Source: Aphrocallistes beatrix (taxonomy: Eukaryota > Porifera > Hexactinellida > Sceptrulophora > Aphrocallistidae). From it: a stretch of 64,000 bases of DNA. Below are positions 23,930 to 49,461 of this stretch, piece after piece. Within the stretch, counting starts at the first letter, position 1. Each line of letters starts with the position of its first letter. Below the pieces are notes generated by a model. That model was given only the letters and a program-made list of their open reading frames with translations. It searched no databases and was not told where the DNA came from. The stretch lies in NCBI GenBank assembly GCA_963281255.1, contig OY725502.1, positions 3,844,001 through 3,908,000 on the forward strand. Direction: 5' to 3'. Made by a program: the position numbers and the translations under genes.

Positions 23930-26900
23930 GTGTTTACTTTAGCTAAGAAAACTACAACTGAAAATAATGTCGCTGAAGTTTTGAATAATGGAAAACTCTT
24001 TTATTACCACCACCATCATTACTCTATATTTAAAGTACCTCGGAATAAATATGGTATATGCTCACTCTTAAAAAGAAAGGATATTTTGATACAGTTATTT
24101 GATGAGCTAGATGTTAAGGTCTTGAAGCCTAATGACACGGAGTATACGTTCTATTCCGATTTATCTTTGATTATCGGTAATGAAAACTCTTATAATTCGG
24201 GAATTAAATTCATATCTGGCCAAACAATGACAAAACTAATATTTCATTTGGGAAAAAGAGACTGGAGCTCTCACTCTAACGATATCCCATTCATGTCTTT
24301 AGAAGCTTTCCTTCACTATCTCGTATCTTTTTCTATTAATGCTACAATGATAACCGCAATAATGAGCGACTGTATTATTGATTGGAGTTACATTGATGAT
24401 AAAGGCAATTCCTTCATTCACGCCACTTGTTTGTTAGAATCTAACGATATTCTTGCTAAGGACATTATCAACAAGGTGTTGGATAAACTACCTAATTTAA
24501 TAAACCATTATAACCAACAAGATCAAACTCCCCTAGCCTTGCTTTTGAGCAAAAATAACCCAAATATTCAATTAATCGATTTTTTGATAGAAAAAGGAGC
24601 ATCTTTATTCACTGATAAAAACGATTATAATATAATTCCTGGACAATTTATCATTAGTTTACAAGATGATAAAAGTGATAATATGGGTGAAGTGGTTATT
24701 GCATACGAAATTGTCAAAGGAGCTATAAAAAACCTTTACACAAGCACATACTTGATATTTAGCAGTAGCTCAGGAAAGCATACAATAACTCAAAAAATCC
24801 AAGAAGATTCTGAAAACTTGAAACAATGTTTTCTGCAGAGGTTCGACGCTTTAATAAAAACTAATTGTCCTCAAATAATCGATTACGTTTTTGATTCCAA
24901 AAATAAATTATTATCAGAGCCGGATAGAGAGTCATTGTTACATTTAACTGTTAGAACTGCTACTCCTCCCTTATTACGACATATTCTCAAATATGTTAAG
25001 AGATGGGATGTTGTTGATAACAGTAACTACAATTTTCTTCATACAGCGATTAATTGTAAGAAATTTGATAATCTCAACGTTTTGCTCAACACCATCCCAA
25101 CTTATCGTCTTAAAATATTAATGAATACTCCTAATGACGGGAATATGGTTCCATTTAATATGATGCTCAACGAACCAATATCTTACGAAAGTATATCCAT
25201 TGCATTAGGTAAGGAATGCGTTGATGTAAAAGGTAACAACTTCATTCATATCGCAATAGAAAAGGGAAAATTCGAATGTCTTCGATATCTCGTTGCGAAT
25301 GCAGATAAAAAATGTGTTTTGTTGGAGAATATATCTGGTGTCACTCCATTACAACTTGCTATTACCAAATCCTGTATCGACTCAGTAAAGTTATTGCTTG
25401 AGTGTTCAATTGAACTTTTGGACCATGAAAATAGGTTAGGGTGTAATTACTTACATTCTTCGATTATCCATTATAATTTTACCATCTTTAAAATGGTATT
25501 AGCAGAAGTATTGAAGTTTGACAAAGATCATACTGAAAACAAATTGATTAATAGAAACACCCGCTATACACAAGAAGAACAATCTTACAGCAATTATCCC
25601 ACGCCTTTTCTACTCAGTATTCAACATAATAAATTCGATGCTACTGAGTTGTTAGTTACCGAAGGAGTTGATATTGAAAAATCAGATAATCACAGGAAAA
25701 ATGTTTTTCATTATTTATTAGAGTATTGTAAAACACAAGATTATTTGACAAGAGTATTAAATCTTAGAATAAATAAAAGAAATTATATTGGTTTACAACA
25801 GACTGCTAAGATTCAAGATGTGGAGATTGAACAGAATAGCATTTTATTTTTTTTCTCTCAAAATGGTGATTTTGACTCTTTCAAAAGGTGCTTTCAAGCT
25901 CTATCTTTAAACAATATATTCAGGGTAAACACAGAAGGTGACACTATTTTACAAACAGTACTTAATATAAACAATGTATTCATTGGATATCTATTTCTTC
26001 AACTTTCTCAACTATCTAAAACATATGCTAAAGATGTAATGGATTTTATAAATTCCGCTAACCATCAAGGTGAAACCGCCTTATCTCAAGCTGTACGAAA
26101 TTTACTGCATTCGTACGTTAAGGAAATTCTTGATTTAGGAGCTGATATTCACACCATTTACCGAAATAATAATACCATTCTTCATATTGCGATTAACACA
26201 AATGATTCCGAAATGATTAGCATTTTGTTAAACTGCCCTGAAATTAATACGTTATTATGTAAAAAGAATGATAGTGGTGAGCTACCAATGATTCAACTCA
26301 TTAAGAGTGGGAAGGGGAGTGTCACTACTAATATTAAGGAAATTAAAGGAGGTAAATTACTCCATTATGCTGTTCAAATAAACGATATTTCTATTCAGAA
26401 CAGTCTATTTGGCCAAATAAAAATCAAATCTGAGATGAAAGTTAAAGCTAAAGATGGCAAAACTCCTTTCCATTATGCAATAATCTTCCAAAATATCCAT
26501 GCCATAAGAACTTTGATCAAACACGATGTTGATATATTGGTCCCAGATGATGATGGAAAAACAAGTATTCATCTCGCCATTGATGTAAAGAATGAAGGAA
26601 TATGGACTCTGATTTTTCAAAATTTGAGCACTCGTAAAAATAAAGTAGAAATCATTGATATACGATGCTTTAGTCAGATTAATCTTTTCCAATATTCTAT
26701 TCTCCAAAATTTTTTGCCAGCAGTCAGAGATATTTTAACATTGAAACCTAATCTATTCCCTTCTCATCCACAAAACAACACTATCATCCATCTAGCTGCA
26801 GAGACTCCAGAACTTACATCTATCCTATTACATCTCCTTCAGGAAATTAACACAGACGATTTGAACAATTTGCTTCAGAGTACCAACGAGGGACAATTGC

Positions 26901-29900
26901 GACCTCTACATCATGCTATCATCTGTAATAATACCCAAGCATTGAAAATATTTGAAACGTGCGATAAAGGAAAGCATAATTTTCAGATTGCTGTTCCTTT
27001 TAAGGGGAAATTAACTTTTTTCTCTCCAAAATTTCAAAATAAACTTCTCTTAGGCAAATACTTCCCTTCACATCCCAATGCTTCTAAGGAAGCAAAATTC
27101 CTATTTGGATATAGAGTCGAATCTCCCAATGAAAAATTACTAATTTTAACCGATATACCTGAATTAAAAACTACCAAGATTTTTCAGCCATCTAGTATAC
27201 AAGAAGTACGCAAGGTTGATGAAGCAGAACTTAAACTATTACTCAAAGTTGCTAGTGTTGATGTTATAATATATGCAATCAGGATAAATATCATTGATAT
27301 TAGCTCTAGGTTTTCAAATGGAGCCACAATACTACACCTTGCTGCCAAATTCGGATCTTGTCAAGTTCTAAACTATTTTCTCACCTATAAGGGTAGTGAT
27401 GCGCATCATAATGTATTAACATTAAATAGAGAACGGAACTCAATTGTATACTATGCTCTACAAAATATTATTGATGAGGTTTTCCAATTAATTTGTGAAC
27501 ATGTTTTTGATTTTTGCAAGAGGGAAAAGAAATTTAACTTCTTCGATATTCCTAATTCTAATGGAAAGAGATTGCTAGGTATATGTTTAGAAATGGACAA
27601 ATTAGCACCGTTTGAAATTCTTTCGAAGAAATTCAAAGTTGAATTGATGTACAAAGATGAAGATGGATCAACCCTTCTTCACAAGATAATTCAAAGTCAA
27701 TTTTGCGACAAATTCATTTCACCATTTCTTGAATCGTTAGAAGAGAGATACGATCTTGCAAAGATCAGAGAATATCTGGGATGCGTAACTAAAGGTTGTA
27801 ACGCTTTGCATTTGATAGCTTTAAATAATAAAATATCTTTATTATCAATCTTAATGGACAAGTTTAAAAATTATTTTCTCGTTCTCGTTAATTCTCAAAC
27901 GAATAAAAATCGTTTAACACCTCTACACTTAACCTCAAGAAATGAAGACATAAAAATGACTCGTATTTTACTTGAAAATGGCGCGAAACCGAATATCATA
28001 GATTGTGAAGGTAAAACTCCCCTCCATTATGCAGCATCTAGCAAAAATCAAACTGATGAATTGATTGTTATGCTATTGAATTCCCTTAGCTCGTTACTAA
28101 CTGTGAAGGATAACAGAGGCCGAACCCCAGTATTTTATGCTGTAACCGAAAATAATGTTATCGCACTTGAAGCATTAATGACTCGTGATAGAGACCTTCT
28201 CGACACAGACAATGATGGAAAGACTATAATACACTTTTCTATTGAAATGAAAGAAAAGAAAATTTGGGAAATATTGTTTTCAAAGCTTAAGGCCAGCATC
28301 ACCAGGGGAAACCTCCCAGTATCACATCTCTTTAACCTTCTCCAATACTCTATGATTGGAAATAATTCGATTGCTTTCACTGACCTACTTAGCCTTACCA
28401 GTCAAATTGAAATCACAGACACACATTTTATTAAGTTAATTGCAACACTGATTAGTTCAAATTCCCAAAGCTCGTTCCTTGTAACATTGATTGCGCATGT
28501 TAATAAATTCCCCAATTACATAGATCGTTTCTTCTGTCCTAAATCCCTTAATAATTTCGAACCTCCATTACAATTAGCTATCCGGAATTCAAACAGTTTA
28601 GCGATTCGCGTTTTGTTGGGCGAGAATATTCCATTAGCGTTCCCAATCGAAGGAGGACAAACGTCCCTTTACTCACAAAATAATCCTGAAACCCTTATCA
28701 TGGGTCAGTACATTAAGAAGTCTACTGACTTTTTAATTGGTTATAAAATTCGATCAGATAGTTCATATCTGTTAGTCACACTACCAGATTTTACTAATAC
28801 AAATATTTACAGCTCCCGAGAGGTGTTAGAATTGAAAAAACTGACAAAGAATAGCATTATTAAACTTCTGCAGTGCAATAGTATTGAACCGATCAATTCT
28901 CAGATGGATAAGATTAAAATGACCCCTAATATTGAAATAATATATCTTGCGGCAGAACATGGGTCCATTCTGGTATTAAAGTATTTACTTTCAAATCCAG
29001 ATAACATTAAATTTGTTCTAAAGCAAATATTGTTTTACGCAATACTAAATAAAAACAAGGAATCTTTTAAAATGGTTTGCAATTTTCTCGTTAACAAGAA
29101 AGCATTTGATGTGTTCAGTGCTACTAATGATGAGAACAAGAGAATTATTGAAGTTTGCTTGGAAAGAGATGACTATATTCTATTCTGCTTTCTGCTTAAA
29201 TCAGAATTTAAAGTTGAATTGAGTTTTATTGATGCAAAAGGCTATACTTTATTCCACAAACTCGTTCTCCTAAAAAGGGATCTGAAATTTCTTGAAGAAT
29301 TCCATGAGGCCTTCCCACATGACTCGAAAAAAAGATTCATAGACTATCCAGCTGGTCAGTCTAAACTAACTGCTTTACACCTTGCAATTCTTGAAAATCA
29401 GCCAAATCTTGTTAATTTTATGTTGAGGGAGAATTACGATGTAAATGCCAAAACAAACTGTGGAAACAGTCCCTTACATTTGGCTATTTTGTATAACTCT
29501 CTCGATATAACGAAATCTATCCTTGAAACTGTTTCTAATAAAGTATTGTTTAATGAACAAAACAAAAATGGATTCACACCCTTGCATATTGCAATACAGA
29601 ATGCTAATATCGAGATAATAGCACTATTACTAGGTAAGAGGACTATTAGACTAGATTTATATGATATTCTGGGTCGAAGCGTGCTTCATCATGCTGTATT
29701 GATACAAGAAATCGACCTTAGCACTCAAATATTATCATTCTTCCTCAGGAAATCGAATTTATTCCAAATTGAGGATAAGCAGGGGCAAACAGTACTGCAT
29801 TATTCGGTTATTCACGATAACTTAGATGCTCTAAATTTATTGCTTGAAAATTGTGATTGCAACATTTTATTCATTAGAGATAAAAGCAAAAATACAATTT

Positions 29901-32900
29901 TTCATTACTCCATTGAGATCAAAACAGTTTCTATATGGAAAGCAATCTTTGAGAATTTGAAACATTGTAAAAAATCCACATCAATAATTGATGTAAATAG
30001 CTTCAAGACATCCCTACTAGTATATTCTATTGAGCAGAACAATTTAACTGCTTTCCAAGATATTCTCTCACTGAATCCAAATTTAAACGCGACTGCTAAA
30101 GAAGGAAATACTCTTCTCCATTTAGCTGCATTATCTCCTGAAACCCAACATATCCTCAATTCACTTTTACATTATTTGAGTGAACATCAGCACGAAAAAG
30201 CGCAAGACATAACTTGTTCTCAAAATAACGATAATTTGGCTCCATTCCATCTTGCAATACTTCATAATAATATCCCCGCAATCGACATTTTTCTAAGATA
30301 CGATGTACCTTTAGTATTTTATGATAAACTTAGTAGTCAATATACGATTTGTTCGAAAGACTCTCCTCTTAAGTTGCACTTATGCAGGAATAATAGTAAT
30401 TTACTTATCGGATACAAGGTAATAGATCAAGTTTCTTCCAACAAAATCATTTATTGGATTTTGACAGAAATTCCCAAATTGAATCCAAAGGCCCTCAAGT
30501 ATCGTAGCAGAGAAATATACGAGCTTACAACAATATCTGAACATCATGTCCAGACTATTCTTAAATATCCAAGTCCTGAACCAATACTTACATTTTTACA
30601 CACAAAACTCATTCCAGAAACTTTACAGTTTACGAATAATTGTAACATACTACACCTTGCAGCCAAGTTTGGTTCAATTGAAGTTGTCTCAGAACTCAGT
30701 AAATCAATGCAATTTGAAGAACTCGATCAAAATATGGAAACAGTGCTATTCTACGCACTTGAAAATGGTGATATTACAATTTTACAATTTCTTTTGACAA
30801 AAATATCAGAGAATACGTCCAAAACATCAAGCATTATTAATAATGAGAATGCTTCTGGAAAACGAATTATAGAAGTAGCTATTGATATGAATTACTTTGA
30901 AGCTTTTGAGTGTTTATTAAAACGAGATTTTCAGGTTGAATTAACTTATCGAAATAAGAATGGTTTGACACTATTACATAAGATTATTCAAGACAAAAAG
31001 GAAACTAGTTTTTTCCAAGCACTACTCGAAGAGATCAAAGCTAGAAACCCGGAATTCCTGAATGAATACATTAACTCACCCAAACATAGTTCAAAGGAAA
31101 CTGCTTTACATCTTTGTTTACGCCATAAACAAAGAGAAATGCTGAACATTCTTTTGAATCTTAACCCCAATTTCTCATGCGAAGATGAAAACAAAGATAC
31201 GCCATTGCATTACGCCATAAAGTTAAATATCTACGTTGATCTGATTCTTAATTCCATCAAAAAATTGGAAGGTGACAATTTATCTTTGATCAATGCGGTA
31301 AACAATAAGAAATTAACACCACTCCATCTAGCTATAATTAACCATGACCAACCTAGCGCAGAGCTACTTCTAAACAAAAGGGCGAATTTATACGCGATTG
31401 ACACAGGAAAGAAATCCATGCTACATTATGCGGTTGAAATTGAATATAATATTTTTTGTCAAAGTGTGATTAAATTTCTTTTTCAATTTGAACAAGATCA
31501 TCCTTCACTCGACAATGACCTACTGCATATGCAAGATAATGCAGGGTCGACAGCTTTGCATATGACTGTGAAAAAGTCAAAAACAAGCACTACCAAACTT
31601 CTAATTCAGCAAAATCCTAATTTAATGCTAAAGGATGATGAAGGTAAAACAGTTCTTCATCATTCTGTTTGTAATGATAACCCAGATATTGTTGACTTAC
31701 TCATGGATTACATTGTTAAAACAGATACGCAGGCAATCAATATACAAGATTCTCAAGGCAATACACCATTGCATTTAGCTATTAGTCTGGATAGACAATA
31801 TTCACTGCCAAAATTGCTGGCGATGAATCCTGCCCTTGATCTCAAGAATGAGTTGGGACTAACTTTACTTCATCTTGCTGTAGTACAGAGTGAAGAAGTA
31901 TTTGATCAAGTATTGAAAGCTATTGAAGATAAAGTACAATCTTCCCGTTCTGATATCAGTCATTACCTTCAGGCATTGAATAATGAGCAGCTACCACCTC
32001 TTCATCACGCAATAATGTGTGCTACCAATATTGAATTAGTAAAAAAGCTGAAAGAAAAAGGAGCTAAACTAAATTATGAGGATGGCACAGGAATCATATC
32101 TTTATTTGCTGGCAAAGGTGGTTTAGATTTAGAAATTGTCAAAGTCAAAAGGAACATGTTGATGAAAAGAATCAGGAGTTCTAATCATTTTGTTGGTTTT
32201 AAAATGAATAAAATTCCATATTGGATATTAACTGAATTGCCTACCATGGATGTGATACTAATAGAAAAAGTTGAAATCAACTACGAAACAGTGAATACGC
32301 CATTGAATTATACTGATACATTTATGATTAATCTTATAAAATGTGAATGCATTGAACCAATCAAGATGGCAATTGAAAAGAAACTTGTAAATGATCGTGA
32401 AAAGGAAAAGGGAGGTAACAGGCTTTTAAACTTCGCTAGTAAGAATGGTGGCTCTGCAGTTGTGATAAACTTCATAAAAAGTACATCACTCACATTGGAA
32501 GTAATGTGCTCATGGATAGAGAGTAGCGTTTCAAATCTAGAATCATTGAAAATCATTTTTGAATCCATCCCTGATTATCACTATGATTCAATTATCAAAG
32601 ATTCGAGCGAATTATCCGGAGAAGATTTGAAGAGAAACAAGATTGCCATTGCGTTAAGCAACGCATTACTATCTTGTTTGAAGAACAAATCCATCGAAAT
32701 ATTTACCTTTTTGTTGTCGAAGAATTTATGCCTAAACATGCAATACGGTAATGGTAGGGATACTTTACTTCACTCAATGATTAGGCAAGGTGAGAGCGAA
32801 GACTTTATCACTTTATTCTTGGATAAAGTTAAAGAATACGAGAATGATAGAAATAAAAAACTTCTGATTGATGGTGAGCCCTTAATTGATGCACAAAACT

Positions 32901-35900
32901 CGGACTCGCAAACTGCACTGGCTCTTTGCATTCTTAAAAATCAAGAACAAAACTTCAATGCGTTACTTAAATACGATCCCTCACTGACCTTGAAAGATAA
33001 ATCGAACAATAATATTTTGCATCACATTTCAAAGACAGGAAATATGGTAATTGCGGCTATAGTTTTTAAAATATCTAAACTTGAATGCTTATTCAATGCG
33101 AAGAACTCAGAAGGTTGCATTCCCTTACACATCGCAATAGATCATGGCAATAAAAAGATAGCAGAGATGTTATTGGAGCAACGATCTGATTTTTATTCTC
33201 AGGACGATGCTAGTAGAACTGTTCTGCACCATGCATTACTCATTCAGGACCACACTACCAGTACTCAATCCTCGATGATAAAATTTATTCTCGACTACGA
33301 AAAAAATAATTACCCTCCATTACCATCAAAAATGGTAGGGCTGGCTGACAAAGAGGGATTTATTCCACTCAGTTATGCGATTATCCACAAGTCACTTCCT
33401 GCTGTTAAACATCTTGTCCCTTATGCATTCACGCTAAAACATCGGGATAAAGAAGGACAAACAGCTCTACACATAGCATCATTGCAGGATAATTCTGATA
33501 TTTTTCAGAAAATTATCGATCAAATTTCCATACAAGAGCAAAGTATAGAGGGTGAATCTTGGCTTGGTGACAGGGTTTTATGCTATCAAGACAAGCAAGG
33601 TCGGACAGCTCTTCACCTTTGCATTGAATACAAAAGCATTAACGCGTTACGAAGTTTACTAAAGAAAAGACCTTGTTTAAACTTGGTCGACAATGAAGGT
33701 AATTCCCTGTTACATCATGCTGTTGCCAATAAGAAGGATTGCCAATCAATATTAACCATTATACTTGCAGAGTTAAAAAATCGTTTCTCTGAATACGAAT
33801 CCTACTTTTATCTGACAAATAATCAAGGCCTTCCTGTACTCCAGTATGCTATCCAAAAAGACAACCTTATTGCTGTTGAGTTTCTTGTCAAAGAAGGAAT
33901 TAAACTAGCTTTTAAGCAACAGAGTGGGGAGATTACATTTTGTCACAAAAGGTCAAGTTTAGAACTTTTGATCTTTAATAATAAATCAAAGACATCTGAA
34001 TTATATGCTGGATTTCCGATTAAAACACAATTTGTTGTTGCAAAATTGGACAACCTTGAATTGAGCAAGCCATCCCTTGAGAAGAGTGAAATTCAGCAAT
34101 TGAATAATGCCACTTCGTTAAAAAAACGGTATTCAAAATCCATATTTCGTTGTGATTCTTCTGAACCATTTGGTGCAATTAGTAACCTTCTAGAATTAAG
34201 TGATGAGATTGGAAACGATTCTCTGATAGAGTTTGCAGGAAAATACTCATCTGTAGAAGTAATTAATTGCTTCCTTGATTGCTTCAAAATCGATGTTTTT
34301 CAGCGATGCAAAATCACAATTCTCGAATCTGCTATATTACACAATCCAGATAAAAGAACAATAAAAGAAATCCTAGAGCGGTTACCCCTCATTGATAACC
34401 TTAGAATTCCTGAGCAAAATGTGCCTGATCTAAATCGCAATCAACTAATTTCTTTATGTCTCTATAATTCACTTCAGTGTAGTATTAAAAGGAAAGACAC
34501 AGAAATATTTGAAGAATTGCTTAAATTTGGTGCCAAACTGGACAATCCTTATGGTGATAACGCGGGTACCATACTGCACCTTTTGACCGACAAGAATTCC
34601 GATAATTTTGTTGAATCTCTCCTAAAATGGTTGACAATATTAAAAAGCGAAAATAAAGAGGTTTTCGTTGGTAGAATTCCTTTTATTGATGCCCTAAACA
34701 ACCTAGGAGAGACAGCTTTGCTCTTGTTTACAAGTAAACAATTAGAGTCCCATATAGAGTGTCTTCTCAAATATTCACCTAAATTATCCCAAACTGATTC
34801 TGAAGGTAATAATGCTCTACACCTTGCTGCACTAACTGACAACTTTAAAATCCTCAAGTTATTAGTTGCATATGCTATAGAATCAAATTCCAAGTCGCTT
34901 TTAGATGAAAAAAATTCGAACGGCCTGACTCCTATTTTCATTGCCATTGACATGTTGAACCTAGATATTACAGAACATTTAATATCCTCTGGGTCATCTC
35001 TATCCCTCATCGATAAAAGCAAGCGAAATGTACTGCATCACATTGCCATGCTAAAAAGTTCTTTTAAGCGATCTGAATTTATAACATTACTCGAAAGAGA
35101 AAAGGTCCTTTCTAACCTTTCGCGTACACAGGATATAGACGGAAAAACTCCTTTACATCTAGCAACAATTAATCAGTTCAAAGATACAATTGAAAATCTT
35201 TTAAAAGCAGATCCTTTTACACTGACTTTAATTGACACGAACAAAAGGACGGCATTGCATTATGCTGCTATGGGGAGAGATGAAAACATAGTGAAATTAC
35301 TTATCGATACAATTCAACATGAAGAGGAATCGCCGCATGGTTTGGACTGGTTGGAAGATCGTGTGATGTGTCGTCAAGACTTTGAGCATAAGACACCATT
35401 GCACTGCTCCATAGAGAATCAGAATTCTCAAATTCTCAATCTCCTCCTCAAGACCAAACCCTGTCTTGACCTAACTGATAAAAGCAAAAACAGTCTTTTG
35501 CATTACGCTGTCAGCAAATCCAGAAATGTGAAATACGTAGACTTATTATTGAAAGAGTTGGCGGAAAGACTTCCAAAATCCATGCCCGCATATCTTTATG
35601 CTGAGAATGTTGATGGTATTCCACCTTTACAATATGCAATCTTAAATAATAATCAAGAAGGGGCAGAAAAGTTGATCGAATACGAAGCAAATTTAGCTTA
35701 TGAAACTACTCATGAAGGCTATACGCTATGGCATGGCAAGAAGGGTCTTACTATCGAATTTGTCCAAAAACAGTCCAAAGATTTTGAATATTATGTTGGT
35801 CTAAAAATTGAAAGAAACTGCTACGTTGTCTGTTTACTCCCTGAGCTCAAAATAACGGCAATTTTGAAACCTTCAAAATTTGAAGTAGTTAAAGCATTTT

Positions 35901-40400: not shown

Positions 40401-43400
40401 ATCGATAAAGAAATCTGTTTTTAATGATGATACTGAAGCCTTGAAACTCCTACTAAAGTACAATGCGAGGGTTAACTATACATATGATCCAGCCAAAGAT
40501 ACTTTGTTACATCTCATTGTGAAAAATAAAGTGCAAGATTCTTTTGCAAAGTTAATTTTAGATAAATTAAAAGATACCCATGAAGACCATCTTAAATGTT
40601 TCGATGATATCCCATTTATTGATGCCAAAAATGAAAACGGAAAAACTGCATTACATCTCTCTATCGAGACGTCACAGTATACCACTTTTAAAACACTGCT
40701 TGAATATCTACCGAACCTCTTAATACAAGATGACAATGGAGATACTGCGCTTCATCATGCTGTAAAGGTCACACAACAATTATTTGTTGAAGACATTATT
40801 GAACTATCTGAAAAATCTTGTGATGTACTAGAGGCTAAAAATAACGATGGGTGCACAGCTTTACACTGTTCCATTGATGTTGCTGAGCGAAGTATTGTAG
40901 AATGTCTTCTAAAGAATGGTTCGAATTTTTATTCTACGGATCATAACCAGCAAACATTGTTACATCATGCAGTATTGCTATCTAATACTCACTTTAGAAA
41001 GGCGATGGTTGATCTAATTTCACAATATGAAAATTCAACCCTTCAAAAGTGTGAAATTGCACAGATGCAAGATTATCGCAAATATTGTCCGTTACAATTA
41101 GCAGTCGATTTACAACTTCCTGATCTTATCGAGAGCTTACTCTTAATCGATTCTGGAGTTCTAAGCCTCAGAGATAAATTGGAGCGATCGGTTCTCCATC
41201 TCGCCATCTTAGCTAGGGAAAATCCTGAAAACTATGAGATTCAGGAGTCTATTTTTGGCACAATTCTGAGCGGAATTCTTACCCAAGAAAAAAATGACGG
41301 AGGACAATACATTGAATCCAGGATTATCAATTATCAAGATTCTCTGGGGAAAACAGTTTTACACTATTGCCTACAGTTGAATGATGTGAATTCTCTTAAA
41401 AAGTTACTCGCTGCATCTCCAGACTTTGGTTTAAAGGACCTTGATGGGAATACCGCCCTACATCAAGCTGTGGTGAACTATGAATATGCAGATTGTCTTT
41501 ATCCACTTCTTAATGCAATGAAGGATGAACATAATAACTATTTTTATTCACTGAACAAAAGAAATTTACCGCCACTTCAGTTTGCTATTCTTAATAACAA
41601 CCATCCATCAATTGAGATACTGAGAGAATATCGATTTCAATTAGCCTTCCTTAACCCAAACTCAGATGCAATAACTTTATGTGATGAAATGGAAGATTTC
41701 TCTTTGAAATTTATTTATCAAACCTCTACCCATCTTTATTATACTGGATACGAATTCAAGTTCAATGATATCGAATATTGGGTTGTCTCACAATTACCCG
41801 AACTTAAAGTGACTTGGATATTTGAAAAATCAGATCTAATAGAACCTGATATTTCTGCTGAACCTGCTTTGCTCAAAATTATGAAATGTAGATCTCAAGA
41901 GCCGCTCAAGGCTGCTTTTAGGAACAAACTCCTCTTTCCTAATCAACAACTTGATGCTAATACGTTTTTGAGCCAATTTGCTGGACGACATGCAACCAAG
42001 GAAGTTATGGAATTTTATCTCCAAGTGTATCGAATTACTCTTTTTAATTTCGGAGAAAATAATTTATCGATTATTGAATCCGCGATATCTAACCCTGAAC
42101 TAGCAACACTAGATCTTCTATTGAAAGCTCTCAAGAAAGTTGACTCGACACAGGAAGTTATTAAAACATATATTTTGGCATGCCTTCATAACTCACTTGA
42201 ATTTAGTGTAGAAAATGATTCAAGTAATGCTTTATCTCTTCTACTTGAGTACAATTCAGTGCCAAACGATTTGTATTCTTCACTAAAGAACACTCTGCTT
42301 CATCAGATCATTTTGAAAAACAAAAAGTCAGAATTCATTTCTTGTCTTTTAGATAAGATTAGAGTCCTTGAAAACGAACATCCCGATTCAACCAAAATAC
42401 ATAACGAAAACTTTATCGATGTAAAAAATGGCAATAGTAAAACTGCGATGCACTTATCAATTGAATATCAACAAAAAAGTAATCTTGAAATGTTGCTTAA
42501 ATATGGACCGAGATTAGATGTTCATGACCAAAATAAGAATACAGCACTGCACCTGGCTGTTTGTATCCAAAAGCTGGAATTTGTCCAAATGATTGTGAAT
42601 GAAATTATTCGTACTCGTAGGATCGAAATGATGAACGCCAAGAACACCCAGGGATGCACACCACTTCATTTGGCGGTATATGTTGGGAATGTTGAGATCA
42701 CAGAATATCTCTTACAAAATGGGAGTGAGTTTCAAGTTGTTGATGATTGTGAACAAACCATACTACATTATGCAGTTAGTGTACCAATTTTTTCTTTCGA
42801 ATATCCTCATATTGCCGTCCTTATACTTGAAAAATACCCTTCACTCCTGAAAGCCATCGATAAATGGAAACGAACTCCACTTCATTTGGCTGTCATTCAA
42901 CATAATCATAACAGTTTTGATTCTCTTCTACAAGCGATGAACGAAATAGAAATGGAATCATCATATGACAATCGTATCATTTCTTACCAAGATTACCAAG
43001 GAAAAACAGCCCTACACCTTAGTATCCAGCATCAAAATTTCCATGCTCTAGATCGACTATTGGAAACGAATCCTTGCTTGCATCTAGAAGACGAAGATAA
43101 AAATACTATTCTCCACTACGCTACTATGCAACCAAATGATGGTTATAGCATTCATCAGGTTCTGTTATCGATTAAGACGCGTTTCAAAGACCAGTTTGAA
43201 AATTATATTTACCATACGAATAACCTCAAACTAACACCTTTACAACTTGCCATCAAACATTGCCATATGAAAGCGATTGAAACATTGGTTATTAAATTCG
43301 GCGTTTCTATTGTCCATATTGACCAAACTATAATCAAACTGAACTCAAATTCTGAATTACCATTAAGATTTTATGTTTCAACAAGTGGTTATAATCAATA

Positions 43401-45540
43401 TTACATCGGTTATCCTGTTATCACAAAGGAAAGAAAGTTCGTTGTCTGTAGAATTGCTCTTCGCATGGACAATCTTTCTGAGACTGAAATTTTACAAAAA
43501 GTTGAAATTGAAGAGGACTTAAATGAAGATCTTTTAATCCAAATTATGCTTTCTCAGACTTCAGAACCCCTTGAAGCATATCTATATCTTAGAATAATCG
43601 ATCTTGCAGTATCTCTTTCCGAAGATTCTACTCTCATCCATTTTGCTGCACAATATGGTACACACCAAGTTGTTTCTTTCTTAATTTCCAAATTTAATGC
43701 GCTTCCTGCATTTAAATATGAAAGACAAGATGAAGACGGAAATAGCATTTTACATCGTGCGATTGACAATGAAGATTTCGAGAGTGTTAATTTATTGTTG
43801 AAAAGGGTCCGAAATTATGAGAACTTGCCACCAACAGATCGAATTATTAACATAAAAAATAAAGAAGGCTATTCAGCATTAGATGTCGCTTTAGAAAAGG
43901 AGAGAATCGATGTGTTTCTTGAGTACATTAATATAGAAAATAATGCTATCCTCAACTATTTCGATCCTAGTCAAAACACATTATTGCATCATATTGTTGT
44001 TTCTCACAGACATCACACAGAAGTATGTCTCAATGCTTTAATAGAGAATATAAATAGTCGTGAAAATCAAAAGGAACGCTCTACTTTGATAAATGATGTT
44101 CCTTTAATTGATTGTTACTCTCATAACAAATACACAGCTCTACATCTTAGCATTTTATATGAGAATATCGTTGCGTTGGAGATTTTATCAGAAAAAGACG
44201 CTCAATTATCACTCACAACAGTAGATGACGAAAATTCAATTGTCCATCTTGCAGTGCTGTGCTTAAAAGATGAAAAATACCTGAAAATTGTCGTAGATGC
44301 AATACTTTCTGCTGATAAACCTGAGTATTACCAACTTCTCAATGAGAAAAATCATGATGGAAACTGTCCATTACATCTCGCAACTGCTGATGCGAAGTAC
44401 GAGTATGTTGAAGAATTGTTGAAACAGACAGATAAACCTGCCGATAAAACAGAGGAGTACACCAACGTACGTAATGAGCAACTTTATGTCAGGGATCAGA
44501 AAGGATATACACCTCTACATACGGCAACCCTACTTAACACTAAAGAAGCAATCAAAATAATCAACATCTTGTTTGAAACAGAAAAAAACTTGAATATAAT
44601 GGGTAGAACAATACTAAATCAGCGATGTAATGAAGGTAGAACTCCTCTACACCTCGCAATCTCGAAAGGGAGCCCAATCATAAAAGAGAATACTGAAACA
44701 GCAATCGATATCCTGGATCTCATATTCAAGCTTGCAGATGAAGTAGATCCTGAACTTGAATATCTCTTGTGCATAGATCATAATCTATGCTCTATCCTGC
44801 ACCACGCAGTCATAGTTAATAACTTTGAAATTTTTGAATGTGTGATTCAAAAACTAACCAATGTACTACCTCGCCTTGGACAACTTCTTTTGAACTTGCA
44901 AGATAAAGATGGAAGAACAGCCCTCATAATAGCCATCGGAACAGAAAATTTCGAGATCTTCGAGAAATTGTTGAAGTTGAATCCATCCCTACACTGTCGA
45001 GACCATGTGAATCAATGGACAGTTCTGCATCATGCAATTGACAAATATTCAAAAAGCACCACATTTTTTGATGAAATTAAGGAAAGTTTGGAGAAAGCAG
45101 AATTCCAGTCTTTAGTGAATATAATGGACAAAAATTACCACACTGCATTACATCTAGCTATGAAAAAAGGTAACGAACAAATAGTTGAATTGCTGATTAA
45201 TACACGTGCGAAAGTCGCTGTAGAGAAAGAATATGGTTCTGATACATATACTGTTGGAGCTTCTGGTGATAATCCTTTGGATGTAATGTTTGGGAGAGAG
45301 GGTCATGAAACGGATGTTCAGATGTACGTATTTCTTATCGCATATAGAATTGGTAGTAAACATTTAGTTTCAACTCTCCCTAATTTTGATGATACAAAAT
45401 TGTTAGATAATGAAGCTTTTAATCACAATGTTCAATTACACAAAGACTTTAAAGACGAAACCACAAAACTGGTTAGAAAGGTCGTTGCTAGTAAGTGCCC
45501 AGAACTTATCAAAATGATGCTCAAAGATAAGATAATTACC
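24610..45540 (+). repeat. Twelve copies of an uncharacterised ~100-residue domain within ankyrin supermodules
   Basis: Copies start near 24610, 26985, 28625, 30305, 32055, 33895, 35685, 37950, 39835, 41635, 43300 and 45205. Spacing is mostly 1.6-1.9 kb (550-630 residues). The shared pattern is a β-rich segment with xLAFxxxxG, then [FY]xGYxI, then YWVxTxLPxL and a T-K-I-F-like strand, then an acidic stretch, then KCRSxEPLxAAIxxKLI. Examples are YYVGLKIERNCYVVCLLPEL (copy 7) and YWVTSQMPGLKTTKIFEK (copy 9). The first copy and the last are the most divergent. Confidence 0.85.
37475..37842. other. Interruption between the two giant frames
   Basis: About 370 bases with stops in all frames. Codons immediately before the second frame's ATG (37828-37842) still read Y-F-C-S-I, matching the module consensus YFYSLN. 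The first frame ends GAHLECFKF at the equivalent site. A GT at 37461 and an AG at 37825-37826 (AATTAG) would remove almost exactly the extra DNA but join one base out of phase. The stronger donor AAG|GTATAG near 37484 lies past the stop. I see no AATAAA here. Confidence 0.6.
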
Positions 45541-48500
45541 AAAGAGTATGCTTCTGAAACAAAACTGATCTACATTGCAGCCCAAAATGGATCAAAAGCT
45601 GTCATGAGATATGTATGTGAAGTAGTAGAGGCTGACTTTGACTATGAATCACAAGACAACTCTGGGAATACTTTAATACATTATGCTGCGAAGAACACCA
45701 TTCCAAATATTAAAACTCTAAAATATGTGCTAAAGAGATCAGAAGAGTTCGAAAAGGCCAAAAAGGAGAAATCAGCACAAAAAATCATTAATTTTACTAA
45801 TAACAAAAATCGAAGTCCTCTCCAAATTAGCATAAATTCGAGAAAATACGAATTTTTCATTGCTTTGATTAATCGTGGTGCTAATTTGACTGAACAGAAT
45901 GACAAGGGCAATTCAATTCTCCATGTACTCTTACTAGAAAAAGACTCGAGCAAAAGCTCAAAATTTGAAGGAATAAAGATTGTTATAGATTCAATTCTCA
46001 AAAACGAAAAGCTCAAGAAAAAACTGAATACTTTGTTGAGCATCAAGAATCATAATGACTGCACAGTCCTCCAAATAGCCATCATGGAATGCCAAAATGA
46101 AATCGTGAAATTTCTGATTAAAAATAAAGCGAGTGTCAAAGATATTCAGTCACTAAACAGAAACACCATTCTACACATGGCAACGTTAAACGAGTGGGAT
46201 GAGTCAGATATGGAATGTATTTCCGCCGTTTTCAATGCTGTGAAACAACAAGATAAAGACAAGACTGTTTTACGTGTAAGAAACATTGACCTCGAAACGC
46301 CGTTGCATATATCAGTACGTGACAAGGAAAAAAACTTTATGATCAAATCCCTTCTGGACGTAGGTGTCCCGCTGGGAATTTCTAATCGAGAACGTAACAC
46401 TGCTTTACATGTAGCCGCCATAAACGAAGATCATAACACTCTTGAATTAATTATGCGCCATCTTATCAAAAAAGCCAAAGAACATCAACTTGCCGACCGA
46501 CGATTAGAGTATATGAGAGAATTGGTTCGAGAAAATAAGAATAAATTAATGCCGATTAGTATTCCGAAAAAGAAAAGAAACTTAAAGACAATGCTTCGTG
46601 CTTGGAACCACTATCACGAAGTAAACATGGGAGACGGGAGGCAAGGATTGTTAATCCACTTTGCTGTTTTCAATGAGAAAACTGAGTTAGTCGAAGGTAT
46701 CCTTGAAAGTATCAAAGAGATCGAGGAGCGACATGAAGTAGATAATCAAAATCTCCTTTCAAGTCGTGATACGGACGATCTGACTCCACTTCATGTCGCA
46801 GCTGAGATTGGTAATGAGCAGATCGTTGATTTGTTAATACATTATGGTGCAGACATCCAATTGAATAGTGCTCGGGGTGCCCCAGTGGAAATTGCAATGC
46901 AAAAAGATCACATCCACCTGGCGCTAAAATTTGTGAAAGCAGGTGCGAAAATTAACAAATATCTCGATCTATTAACATACGACAAAATCGACGACCGTGA
47001 TATTCAAGAGATCTTCGATAAGAATAAGATCAACGTGGAGAGACGGATCAGTTCAGCTGACTGCACCGTTATTCATTATGCGGCAAAGCAGAGTAGCGTA
47101 TCACGCATCGCACTGCTACTACGAAACAACATTGCCTTAACTGCTTCTGACAGAGACGGAAAACGTGTCTTACACTACGCGGTTCAGTACAGAGATGATT
47201 ACGATGTGTTAAAGTTCTTTCTAGACGAGGCCTCCAAACGAGATGAAGCAATTGAGCGAAAACTTGGGAGAGAATCGGAAGAAAACCGATTAGAATACGA
47301 AGAGTTGAATCTATCATTCATGGAAGCATTGTTCTATCATGATTTAGATGGCATCAACCCAGTAATGCTGGCAGCAAGTCTGGATAGGATCCAATTATTC
47401 AGACTACTCACCACATCCAAGTATGAGTATCTCCTTGACTCTTTGGATGCCTGTGATCCCGATGAGAATAACGTCATGCATTACCTAGCCAAACACAGAT
47501 CCATCAAAACGGCGAGGTATATCGTCCCACGCATCTACAAGTATGACGTCTATCTATTCACACGTATAATGAACGACAGAAATGTCCGAGGAGAAAGTCC
47601 TATAGACCTGGCTCGTAAACGAGGCTTGCAGGAAATGGTGGATCTCTTCATTGAGCATTGCGATTGTGAGTATTTTGAAGCTTGTCCTGACGTAGTGCAC
47701 AGGATGGTTAGAGGGAAAGACTTTCACAACTTTGAAAAAGTCCTCGATAAAACTGTAATTCAGGGCACACAGAAAGTTCAGATTGCCACAAAGCTAATGG
47801 ACTCGAACGAAGAAGGTGCTTATCCTAACTATGCTTATTTCAACTTCCACTTAGATGCGTTATGGCATAAGTTGTACAAATCGAACGAGATCAAGTTCAA
47901 GTACCATCCTATGGTAAAATTTCTCATTGAAGAAAAATCTAATATCTACAAATGGTGGTTTCTGATGCTGTTTTTGCTCTATCTATTTTCCTTTTATATT
48001 CCCTTAGTCATTGCACTCTCCTTAGCATCTTCTCGTTGTGATTACGAACTATTCCTGTATAATACTCCTGGAGACTATGCCCGTTTGACGTTCGAAATGT
48101 ATATCTTGATTTTCACTTGGGTGTACATGATGAATGAGGTAATTGAAATATTTGGCAAATATCTTTACTTTGAATCTCTGGACTACACAACCAACGATCT
48201 TCGTTACCAAAGAGGTCTTCAAGTCCAGTATTATGGCGATGAAGAATCGAACAAATTAACAAAACTAATACAGAATATAGTGAAGCAATTATTTTACGAA
48301 ATTCCAATCAAATTGAAGATGTATTTGTATAGATGGGAGCGTAGCGATAATTTTTTTATTCCTCGATTTTTACCACGTGCAATCTACCACCATTATTCCA
48401 ATACATACAACATGATCGATCTGAGCGGTGTTTTTCTTCTCCTCTTTCTTTTCTTTTTTCGTTTCTTGTTGTACTTTTCTAAATCTGCTGTGGTGGTTGA

Positions 48501-49461
48501 ATTGCATTGGGCAATTCAGGCTCTTACATTCACAGCATTTACATTAAAATTCTTCAAATACACCAAAATGATTCCATCACTTGGAATTTATATCGAGACG
48601 CTTTCGAATGTTCTTTCCAGAGACGTACCAAGATTTACTTTGGTTGTCTTAATTGTATTGATCGGATATACAGGAAGTATCCAACAGGTAGCTCGAACAT
48701 ACACATCTTCTCAATGCGAAAAGGGTAGCTGTTCATTTTCTGGTTGGTTCAACGACGATTCAATTCCATTTTCACCAATCACCACCCCATTGATTTCCGG
48801 GATTCTGTTCACGATAGATGGTGGACCTTCCAACTATGAGGGAAGTCTTCGTGATGTGTCGTTTATATTTTCTGTTCTTTATCTCATTTTCGCGTTCAGT
48901 ATCATTGTGATCCTCCTCAATGTTTTCATTGCACAACTTTCTCAAACCTATTCAGATATCAATTCAACGAAAGATCTTTGGGACTTCAAAGCAGATCTAG
49001 CATTAGAGTTTGAAACTCAGTCAAACATTCTGTTTGTTTTTACCCAACAAAATCCGCTTAAACGTTCTTTGAAAAGAATAATGGTTCAGAGCATCATAAT
49101 CCCAATTGATGTTTGGAAAGAATGTTGGGATTCATATCTCAAGAAGGTCAGTGATTCTACTTCCAGCGATGAAAGCAAACATTTACAAACTGAACAAGAT
49201 GATTCTAAAATTGAAAAACGACTATCTATTGAAGACATTCAAAATACAATTGACAAAATTCTAGATAAAAAAATACTTAAGCATGATGTGGGTACTGAAA
49301 CAGCCGAACCATCTGACGACAAAAATAAACAAGGACAAAACGAGGACCTGAAAAGCATGAAAAAGAAAATTGAACACATAGAAGATATGCTGAGTGATTT
49401 TGTGAAGGGACAAAACAAATCACAGCCAAAATCTGATACGCCTCAAGGAGTGAACAAATAA
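37843..49461 (+). CDS. Giant ankyrin-repeat TRP-like cation channel
   Basis: An intronless 3872-codon frame with an ATG start. It begins mid-module (LPPLQFAIYQKNNKAIEQLL). It carries five further copies of the unfamiliar ~100-residue domain (residues about 36-156, 664-766, 1264-1366, 1819-1921, 2454-2566) among many ankyrin repeats. Residues about 3366-3710 form a six-helix ion-transport domain: S1 starts KWWFLMLFLLYLFSFYIPLV, a re-entrant pore segment reads LISGILFTIDGGPSNYE, and S6 ends IVILLNVFIAQLSQTY, typical of TRP/Cav channels. The C-terminal ~90 residues are charged with a coiled coil (MKKKIEHIEDMLSDFVKG), which in TRPs supports tetramer assembly. Architecture resembles TRPA/NOMPC (ankyrin spring plus pore) but is several times longer. 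Gating stimulus and location are unknown. Confidence 0.88.
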   Translation: MDPNIPICQRSNNRLPPLQFAIYQKNNKAIEQLLKAGFSLTCKDKEGKLILTEHDTLPLYLIYINPGGIKQEFLRPKPRKKSFYAGFLMERESSIQWVVIKLPKLTKTIILEPSVKVYPLDVKSIATALEPIVKCRCPQPLLVAFKQKLIEPNAMLSNGMHLSQYISTHGTKEITKQYLGQCSETLYKGIGDQNSMIESAIDNPDVLKLLLDALSQKQNIIPLEESKIRDCLSNSLRLSVMSNDIKALNHLLDHVDRFNYTYPNDCETLIQITLAQGEKPEFIEAILNKISTLTNQDHTHIMDKSDAPIRFIDWKNSASHTALHISVLKDREQSLAILLRSSDISIPDNEGNSALHIAIKTQNFTMVECIVQQILEVDRGILNQPNELGCTPLHLAVESQNEKITVFLLEKGAAYNLTDNNGCTILHYAVKIRGVDARKRLINCILNHEKKVPTSKSLTHGFEKISGYTPLHLAVVLQYYNAVKLLLSADHECLKMQDKNGQTILHIAVTPKLNVCQYSLNLEPPNQEIFNLFLETIIEQEKILSDSDEIEERLSSYRDNGGKTVLHLCLKFQNIHALTKLLETNPCLNITDNAGNTLIHEAVLIQSDAGKGCLESLLKTIENIQPKEKQKDYFYALNDNGLTPLHSAIKENNKLAIECLIHHDIQLAFENADSLITLLDDGKDFSLDFLTKNSEFYVGYAITFHQVDYWVTSQMPGLKTTKIFEKKIIVHLNDSVESAIFVIIKCRSFEPLQAAIRKRLIDPEGRIDEKHMSQLVSKNATKEVMEFYIVEHNWALFDFPEEESMIECAISNDDNETLELLLQKLPNVDRQELPPMNNSTPTKQQLISLCLYKSIKKSVFNDDTEALKLLLKYNARVNYTYDPAKDTLLHLIVKNKVQDSFAKLILDKLKDTHEDHLKCFDDIPFIDAKNENGKTALHLSIETSQYTTFKTLLEYLPNLLIQDDNGDTALHHAVKVTQQLFVEDIIELSEKSCDVLEAKNNDGCTALHCSIDVAERSIVECLLKNGSNFYSTDHNQQTLLHHAVLLSNTHFRKAMVDLISQYENSTLQKCEIAQMQDYRKYCPLQLAVDLQLPDLIESLLLIDSGVLSLRDKLERSVLHLAILARENPENYEIQESIFGTILSGILTQEKNDGGQYIESRIINYQDSLGKTVLHYCLQLNDVNSLKKLLAASPDFGLKDLDGNTALHQAVVNYEYADCLYPLLNAMKDEHNNYFYSLNKRNLPPLQFAILNNNHPSIEILREYRFQLAFLNPNSDAITLCDEMEDFSLKFIYQTSTHLYYTGYEFKFNDIEYWVVSQLPELKVTWIFEKSDLIEPDISAEPALLKIMKCRSQEPLKAAFRNKLLFPNQQLDANTFLSQFAGRHATKEVMEFYLQVYRITLFNFGENNLSIIESAISNPELATLDLLLKALKKVDSTQEVIKTYILACLHNSLEFSVENDSSNALSLLLEYNSVPNDLYSSLKNTLLHQIILKNKKSEFISCLLDKIRVLENEHPDSTKIHNENFIDVKNGNSKTAMHLSIEYQQKSNLEMLLKYGPRLDVHDQNKNTALHLAVCIQKLEFVQMIVNEIIRTRRIEMMNAKNTQGCTPLHLAVYVGNVEITEYLLQNGSEFQVVDDCEQTILHYAVSVPIFSFEYPHIAVLILEKYPSLLKAIDKWKRTPLHLAVIQHNHNSFDSLLQAMNEIEMESSYDNRIISYQDYQGKTALHLSIQHQNFHALDRLLETNPCLHLEDEDKNTILHYATMQPNDGYSIHQVLLSIKTRFKDQFENYIYHTNNLKLTPLQLAIKHCHMKAIETLVIKFGVSIVHIDQTIIKLNSNSELPLRFYVSTSGYNQYYIGYPVITKERKFVVCRIALRMDNLSETEILQKVEIEEDLNEDLLIQIMLSQTSEPLEAYLYLRIIDLAVSLSEDSTLIHFAAQYGTHQVVSFLISKFNALPAFKYERQDEDGNSILHRAIDNEDFESVNLLLKRVRNYENLPPTDRIINIKNKEGYSALDVALEKERIDVFLEYINIENNAILNYFDPSQNTLLHHIVVSHRHHTEVCLNALIENINSRENQKERSTLINDVPLIDCYSHNKYTALHLSILYENIVALEILSEKDAQLSLTTVDDENSIVHLAVLCLKDEKYLKIVVDAILSADKPEYYQLLNEKNHDGNCPLHLATADAKYEYVEELLKQTDKPADKTEEYTNVRNEQLYVRDQKGYTPLHTATLLNTKEAIKIINILFETEKNLNIMGRTILNQRCNEGRTPLHLAISKGSPIIKENTETAIDILDLIFKLADEVDPELEYLLCIDHNLCSILHHAVIVNNFEIFECVIQKLTNVLPRLGQLLLNLQDKDGRTALIIAIGTENFEIFEKLLKLNPSLHCRDHVNQWTVLHHAIDKYSKSTTFFDEIKESLEKAEFQSLVNIMDKNYHTALHLAMKKGNEQIVELLINTRAKVAVEKEYGSDTYTVGASGDNPLDVMFGREGHETDVQMYVFLIAYRIGSKHLVSTLPNFDDTKLLDNEAFNHNVQLHKDFKDETTKLVRKVVASKCPELIKMMLKDKIITKEYASETKLIYIAAQNGSKAVMRYVCEVVEADFDYESQDNSGNTLIHYAAKNTIPNIKTLKYVLKRSEEFEKAKKEKSAQKIINFTNNKNRSPLQISINSRKYEFFIALINRGANLTEQNDKGNSILHVLLLEKDSSKSSKFEGIKIVIDSILKNEKLKKKLNTLLSIKNHNDCTVLQIAIMECQNEIVKFLIKNKASVKDIQSLNRNTILHMATLNEWDESDMECISAVFNAVKQQDKDKTVLRVRNIDLETPLHISVRDKEKNFMIKSLLDVGVPLGISNRERNTALHVAAINEDHNTLELIMRHLIKKAKEHQLADRRLEYMRELVRENKNKLMPISIPKKKRNLKTMLRAWNHYHEVNMGDGRQGLLIHFAVFNEKTELVEGILESIKEIEERHEVDNQNLLSSRDTDDLTPLHVAAEIGNEQIVDLLIHYGADIQLNSARGAPVEIAMQKDHIHLALKFVKAGAKINKYLDLLTYDKIDDRDIQEIFDKNKINVERRISSADCTVIHYAAKQSSVSRIALLLRNNIALTASDRDGKRVLHYAVQYRDDYDVLKFFLDEASKRDEAIERKLGRESEENRLEYEELNLSFMEALFYHDLDGINPVMLAASLDRIQLFRLLTTSKYEYLLDSLDACDPDENNVMHYLAKHRSIKTARYIVPRIYKYDVYLFTRIMNDRNVRGESPIDLARKRGLQEMVDLFIEHCDCEYFEACPDVVHRMVRGKDFHNFEKVLDKTVIQGTQKVQIATKLMDSNEEGAYPNYAYFNFHLDALWHKLYKSNEIKFKYHPMVKFLIEEKSNIYKWWFLMLFLLYLFSFYIPLVIALSLASSRCDYELFLYNTPGDYARLTFEMYILIFTWVYMMNEVIEIFGKYLYFESLDYTTNDLRYQRGLQVQYYGDEESNKLTKLIQNIVKQLFYEIPIKLKMYLYRWERSDNFFIPRFLPRAIYHHYSNTYNMIDLSGVFLLLFLFFFRFLLYFSKSAVVVELHWAIQALTFTAFTLKFFKYTKMIPSLGIYIETLSNVLSRDVPRFTLVVLIVLIGYTGSIQQVARTYTSSQCEKGSCSFSGWFNDDSIPFSPITTPLISGILFTIDGGPSNYEGSLRDVSFIFSVLYLIFAFSIIVILLNVFIAQLSQTYSDINSTKDLWDFKADLALEFETQSNILFVFTQQNPLKRSLKRIMVQSIIIPIDVWKECWDSYLKKVSDSTSSDESKHLQTEQDDSKIEKRLSIEDIQNTIDKILDKKILKHDVGTETAEPSDDKNKQGQNEDLKSMKKKIEHIEDMLSDFVKGQNKSQPKSDTPQGVNK

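Follow-up and report, generated by a model that had tools for sequence, protein, structure and literature searches.

A giant ankyrin protein with periodic predicted beta barrels and a TRP-type pore, a candidate tethered channel, and its pore-less neighbour in a glass sponge

What do two giant, adjacent frames filled with ankyrin repeats encode in an animal without nerves? They lie in a stretch of 64,000 nucleotides from the glass sponge Aphrocallistes beatrix, hereafter the window (C16:3844001-3908000 of a source genome of 100.5 Mb in 28 contigs). Open reading frame (ORF) 1 (P0001, 4514 amino acids) occupies positions 23930-37474 of the plus strand and holds about 74 ankyrin repeats and seven copies of an inserted domain, with no pore found. 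ORF2 (P0002, 3872 amino acids, with an ATG start) follows on the same strand at 37843-49461 and combines about 56 ankyrin repeats and five inserts with a TRP-type pore and a C-terminal tail. The original prediction, made from the letters and their translations, had described the two frames as one giant ankyrin channel of 12 supermodules. The account that we prefer, with middling confidence, is that ORF2 encodes a pore subunit of the TRP superfamily whose very long ankyrin spring is cut by SH3-like barrels, and that ORF1 encodes a pore-less companion of the same design directly upstream. This design would best be read as a tethered channel that is NOMPC-like but not a TRPN.

The evidence for a channel lies at the C-terminal end of ORF2, where hydrophobic segments make up a TRP-type transmembrane block (47590-49002, plus strand) with the filter region LFTIDGGPSNYE and the last transmembrane segment IIVILLNVFIAQLSQTY. 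We built a profile from 11 pores of the source genome, the window's included, and searched it against PDB sequences. This search returned 52 distinct sequences at E ≤ 0.001, all but one of them (51 of 52) TRP or TRP-like. The best match was 6pw4, named as a TRP-like ion channel and presumably from Chlamydomonas (E = 2.5e-13). TRPV2 followed at 1.2e-9, NOMPC (3e-4) ranked behind 6pw4 and many TRPV entries, and TRPA1 was absent from the 52. The C-terminal 792 amino acids of ORF2 alone also matched TRPV2 (E = 5.5e-9). Pfam Ion_trans matched five of the 11 aligned pores (best E = 3.4e-9), while the pore in the window matched no family; a precomputed annotation places PF00520 on the homologue P0030. 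As judged from these sequence relationships, the transmembrane block is related to TRP channels and ORF2 probably belongs to the TRP channel superfamily. No pore was found in ORF1, where 19-residue hydropathy reaches its maximum, 1.75, in a single peak. The earlier claim that the array ends in a TRP-like pore is correct for ORF2 only, and the best solved matches of this pore are 6pw4 and TRPV rather than NOMPC or TRPA1. The source genome as a whole gave 72 pore-like matches, some of which are pieces of one gene.

A Pfam scan of ORF1 and ORF2 detected little besides ankyrin repeats, with Ank_2 matches at E = 9.3e-222 and 4.1e-157. With a 21-position repeat model we counted 74 repeats in ORF1 and 57 in ORF2 (58 and 41 at E < 0.01); one of the 57 calls falls in the pore block, hence our figure of about 56. 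The same model found 22, 22, 22, 23 and 18 repeats in five ankyrin-2-type proteins, for which 24 are expected. Between inserts, the blocks contain 7-13 detected repeats, and those of the ORF2 stack about 10-12. In both frames, blocks of ankyrin repeats alternate with a repeated domain that is not ankyrin, as had been predicted from the sequence, and the roughly 56 repeats of ORF2 alone already exceed the 29 of NOMPC.

To define the inserted domain, we built a profile from ten seed segments. Each seed, when left out, was recovered at E values between 9.5e-16 and 8.3e-31, whereas the best of 200 shuffles per seed reached at most 9.5 bits. The window holds 12 copies on the plus strand: ten strong, one diverged and one degenerate. 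In ORF1, the strong copies are copy 2 (26984-27346, 103 bits), copy 3 (28634-28930, 96.6 bits), copy 4 (30311-30664, 110.8 bits), copy 5 (32066-32437, 102.4 bits), copy 6 (33902-34237, 94.2 bits) and copy 7 (35690-36034, 123.2 bits). Those in ORF2 are copy 8, the first of that frame (37957-38340, 114.3 bits), copy 9 (39838-40170, 127.4 bits), copy 10 (41638-41982, 129.8 bits) and copy 11 (43339-43650, 103.5 bits). The diverged copy 12 (45238-45582; P0002 residues 2466-2580) rose from 17.8 to 43 bits when the profile was iterated. The degenerate copy 1 (24587-24952; P0001 residues ~220-341) was missed in P0001 by the sequence profile and was detected by profile-profile comparison with hhalign (probability 95.6, E = 4.7e-9; 88.2 and 2.9e-6 against only the 11 other window copies). 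Nine homologues carry a counterpart of it near the same place, at 9-21 bits. Seed profile, iteration and profile-profile comparison together bear out the count of 12. The regular spacing of mostly 1.6-1.9 kb was also recovered, with nine of the 11 start-to-start steps at 1,650-1,899 bases and the remaining two at 2,397 and 2,267. Self comparison of the two proteins, which had been suggested as a check, revealed this periodicity as a strong peak at 600 residues and more peaks near its multiples.

The motifs reported for the domain (FxGYxI, YWVxTxLPxL and KCRSxEPLxAAI) are real but loose: the 11-copy alignments contain no invariant column, and only the G of FxGYxI reaches 90% conservation. The insert is also composite, with a beta part of about 75 residues that carries the first two motifs, followed by an ankyrin-like helix pair that carries KCRSxEPLxAAI. 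What had been described as an unnamed domain of about 100 residues is indeed non-ankyrin and has no usable Pfam match, but it is a predicted small beta barrel of about 75 residues plus the trailing helix pair. A Pfam scan of 11 copies, in which filters may drop weak matches, returned three stray families in one member each (DndE, 0.0024; ALKBH8_N, 0.13; GatD_N, 0.15) and no sequence match to the Pfam SH3 domain families, and the best match of the insert profile among PDB sequences had an E value of 0.47. Neither of these sequence searches produced a usable match for the insert.

We next turn to the predicted fold. AlphaFold2 models of copy 10 reached a predicted local distance difference test (pLDDT) score of 87.3 and a predicted template modelling (pTM) score of 0.84 with flanks (41422-42192), and 83.7 and 0.65 for the beta part alone (41626-41856). 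In the flanked model, the strands of the beta part have block pLDDT values of 88-96 and the predicted barrel sits between two ankyrin repeats; six strands were predicted when it was modelled alone. Ankyrin matches swamped the Foldseek list of the flanked model, after which the beta part was remodelled by itself, and this yielded no Foldseek match at E ≤ 0.001. Scores in the VIA structure list for the barrel were weak, and most of its rows are what we take to be SH3-like barrels. The models therefore suggest a small beta barrel distinct from ankyrin, nearest to SH3-type barrels at weak scores. That the segments are simply degenerate ankyrin repeats and no separate domain is scarcely credible given some 75 residues predicted as strands in a barrel-like arrangement.

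Relatives of these proteins are numerous. From the best 120 of 444 matches in a first homologue search, which included the window's own copy once, we scanned 119 homologues together with the two window proteins; our protein searches admit proteins of 0.55-1.75 times the query length. The iterated insert profile exceeded 20 bits in 33 of these 121 proteins, the two window proteins included. Among the best 120 matches, the named carriers were P0028 and P0036, both from Oopsacas minuta, and the insert was not found in other named proteins. This distribution makes a hexactinellid the most likely source of the window. Of 22 new proteins contributed by a second search, 14 carry the insert and eight lack it; in a third search, the query of the last 1,479 ORF2 residues yielded 14 proteins (12 new), eight of them strong and six far weaker.

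Several relatives could be placed in the source genome. On the same contig, two more ORF1/ORF2 pairs precede the window gene by about 180-230 kb, one on the minus strand (3641321-3660888), whose ORF1 is split into two overlapping frames in the assembly, and one on the plus strand (3669183-3686812). A single-frame relative of 3423 amino acids at C18:3076261-3086529 (minus strand) has three detected inserts and a pore on one chain and shares 44% identity with Oopsacas P0036 along almost its entire length. At C7:1244640-1250987 (plus strand), an open frame of 2116 amino acids encodes two inserts and a Cys-rich C-terminus, and an ORF1-type gene at C1:11991378-12002284 (minus strand) is broken into three frames and is perhaps a pseudogene. 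No pore-like match among the 72 in the genome lies within 300 kb of these pore-less loci (C7:1.25 Mb and C1:11.99 Mb). The C7 frame indicates that pore-less proteins with inserts can stand alone. Twelve further proteins (P0004, P0016, P0019, P0127, P0129-P0132, P0134-P0136 and P0147) apparently share one contig of 729,770 bases that looks like a large tandem cluster, with many ORF1-type and few ORF2-type members; in P0004, copies 4/7 and 5/8 are closely similar. Three ORF1-type proteins (P0008, P0012 and P0014) apparently lie on a contig of 1,161,782 bases together with the window's ORF1. They are only 70-90% identical to the C16 frames and are perhaps a second haplotype or copies missing from the assembly.

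A tree of 93 insert copies provided insight into the age of the array. Copies from the window cluster with their positional counterparts in other genes. Copies 2-5 join those of P0020, P0024, P0017, P0004 and P0126 (copy 5 under the star level of the tree tool), and copies 8-12 join copies from P0009, P0011 and others (8 and 9 under that level). The grouping of copy 6 is weak (84/78), and the tree does not resolve copy 7. Copy 8 clusters with the first copy of other ORF2-type genes, and this common grouping of first ORF2 copies ruled out a frame break that falls before different modules in different genes. Because copies group by position across genes of other assemblies, the array and its duplications are old. 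We read two clades as a trace of tandem duplication, one uniting copies 2-4 (92/91, not starred) and the other copies 9 and 10 (99/95). Growth by tandem duplication of an ankyrin-plus-domain unit, as first proposed, is thus partly supported, but the duplications are old. Sequence constraint was estimated for ORF2 as the ratio of non-synonymous to synonymous substitution rates (dN/dS), leaving out the c4 rows of only 50 and 32 codons. Against the two closest paralogues, ratios were 0.31 and 0.30 for the whole frame, 0.17 and 0.17 for its ankyrin repeats, 0.24 and 0.20 for the pore, 0.23 and 0.31 for insert copy 12, and 0.25 and 0.56 for the tail. The two paralogues compared with each other gave 0.49 overall, 0.22 in the pore, and 0.80 and 0.27 in two inserts. 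These ratios indicate that ORF2 is under purifying selection.

Among known channels, NOMPC, reported to have 29 ankyrin repeats and called a tether-gated channel in the available text of PMC12539804, resembles ORF2 in placing a TRP pore behind a very long ankyrin spring. ORF2 differs in having about twice the repeats on the pore chain, some 56 in blocks split by five inserts as opposed to an uninterrupted run of about 29, and in a pore type that matches 6pw4 and TRPV better than NOMPC. In the part available, PMC4494053 reports TRPN to be absent from Porifera on the basis of Amphimedon and Oscarella, with no glass sponges included. TRPV channels give the best animal matches to the ORF2-type pore (TRPV2, E = 1.2e-9), but their short ankyrin domain, with about six repeats and none of these inserts, contrasts with the roughly 56 repeats and the inserts of ORF2. 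The ankyrin stretches of TRPA1 are similar to those of the giant frames, although TRPA1 has about 16-17 repeats (17 in the title of 7ykr) and is missing from the pore matches. The SH3-ankyrin protein OSTF1 (3ehr) appears in the Foldseek list of the flanked insert model at rank 28 with a root-mean-square deviation of 7.7; proteins of this type carry one SH3 domain beside a short ankyrin domain, with no periodicity and no channel. The closest named proteins are the Oopsacas "Ankyrin repeat protein" (P0036, 3510 amino acids) and LOD99_15032 (P0028, 2816 amino acids; 47% identical to ORF2 over the best local alignment), which have the same insert, three detected in each, and the same pore. Both contain fewer inserts than the window genes, P0036 is of the single-frame form, and neither name mentions a channel. 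Open-licence PMC titles and abstract starts included none on a glass sponge ankyrin TRP family, which does not show that the family is unpublished, and the available part of the Aphrocallistes vastus paper contains no word beginning with TRP (PMC10282587). On these comparisons, this is a real, old and conserved family, set apart from the ankyrin TRPs compared by its length and its periodic predicted barrels.

Do ORF1 and ORF2 make one protein or two? A stop, 368 bases (37475-37842, plus strand) and a start codon part them, with a donor-like AAG/GTATAG past the ORF1 stop and an acceptor-like TTAG 16 bases before the ORF2 ATG. The first codon of ORF1 is GTG, preceded by an acceptor-like TTTTAG and an upstream stop, and its ATG therefore likely sits in an upstream exon. 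In the window and the two other C16 pairs, we enumerated GT-AG combinations (not GC-AG or other donors), taking donors from the last 150 bases of ORF1 and acceptors between the point where the ORF2 frame opens and about 150 bases into it. A simple intron between the frames had been our first expectation; no fitting GT-AG join emerged in the window or the plus-strand pair, but in-phase joins did in the minus-strand pair. The window has no in-phase pair with an acceptor before the ATG, its donors score at most 5/9 and every in-phase join removes repeat sequence; the plus-strand pair has its in-phase acceptors downstream of the ATG and no donor above 6/9. ORF1-type ends look conserved: ORF1 terminates in CFKF and a stop, and 22 of 32 pore-less family proteins (the window's included, many closely related) stop 0-5 residues past C/P-F-x-F/I/L. 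In all 12 ORF2-type heads that match the pattern, a Met stands 10-21 residues ahead of the first ankyrin motif, with the ATG confirmed in DNA for our three pairs and machine-called starts reading M by construction. Seven of the 14 pore-bearing proteins match this head pattern; the other seven comprise four single-frame forms and three whose called start lies elsewhere. In the three pairs, the TTAG site precedes the ATG by 16, 14 and 13 bases, as expected for a spliced 5' end. In A. vastus, the available text of PMC10282587 reports a trans-spliced leader of about 37 bp and also a protein of 49,014 amino acids in one exon; giant single-exon genes thus occur in glass sponges. Because ORF1 has a conserved stop, ORF2 has its own ATG and no fitting in-phase GT-AG junction is present, the window probably encodes two proteins, a channel with five inserts and a pore-less neighbour with seven, and not the single 12-supermodule channel first proposed.

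Several observations weigh against two chains and would fit two exons of one gene, whose product would be a single channel chain of about 8,400 amino acids with 12 inserts and about 130 ankyrin repeats. In P0003 and P0004, which come from other assemblies, an ORF1-type end runs in frame and with no stop into an ORF2-type start (CFRFETD-P-MDQTKSH). In the minus-strand C16 pair, two 6/9 donors share the phase of the TTAG acceptor upstream of the ATG and would give the same kind of join (CFKIE...MNQGD), and a GTAAGT donor (8/9) is in phase with acceptors inside ORF2, one of which keeps the repeat register. In P0009, judged from the protein alone, the homologous Met follows a proline, itself preceded by a stretch that is possibly the 3' end of an intron read as protein, and the C18 relative carries inserts and pore on one chain. 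P0003 and P0004 hold no pore, however, and their read-through join could be explained by intron loss or one precise fusion. Together with the junction, stop and start data above, this leaves the single chain a serious but doubtful contender; if true, it would be the longest tethered channel known to us. For the ORF2 pore subunit with its separate ORF1 companion, we envisage a channel that would be a tetramer, as in other TRPs, with the ankyrin stack as its tether. Barrels every ~12 repeats may act as anchors or hinges that hold the stack to the cytoskeleton, the membrane or the companion, and the ORF1 protein may be a matching partner or an extension of ORF2. Cytoplasmic strain would exert force on the stack, the pore would open and cations would enter; in a glass sponge, this entry could set off the calcium action potential by which touch or sediment halts the feeding current. 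Glass sponges are reported to fire such action potentials after sediment, mechanical or electrical stimuli, with arrest of the feeding current (PMC5095125, in the part available), which makes a cation channel on a tether a reasonable candidate for the trigger. The ORF2 channel is accordingly a candidate for a mechanosensory role in sensing force or touch. It is also conceivable, though to our minds rather unlikely, that the inserts are scaffold-type binding modules and that the channel senses chemicals, temperature or particles instead of force. Peptide binding is common among SH3-like folds, ankyrin TRPs such as TRPA1 sense chemicals, and the numerous TRP-like matches in the genome are as expected of a sensory repertoire, but the length of the stack and its regular spacing are more tether-like than the short ankyrin domains of chemosensory TRPs. 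The most far-reaching version, in which ORF1 and ORF2 are joined in a mature protein of ~8,400 amino acids (~130 ankyrin repeats, 12 barrels) that arose independently of NOMPC and is the mechanoreceptor starting the sponge action potential, we consider improbable.

Other genes surround the giant frames. An ORF about 5 kb upstream (17848-19044, plus strand) matches the P2X receptors, a family of ATP-gated channels (E = 3e-11), and two nearly identical sugar-transporter ORFs stand in tandem at 57935-59386 and 60055-61470 (plus strand). An ORF at 1827-3380 on the minus strand has a weak integrase core match (rve, E = 0.0011, under the curated cut-off) and is perhaps derived from a mobile element.

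The available part of PMC5095125 does not name a receptor channel for glass sponge action potentials, and for animals without nerves this ankyrin-TRP family offers a concrete candidate for the first step of the response to touch or sediment. Tether-like ankyrin TRPs in glass sponges would mean that the ankyrin-spring channel originated a second time. The periodic barrel, which is absent from the ankyrin TRPs compared, could reveal how so long a spring is held in place.
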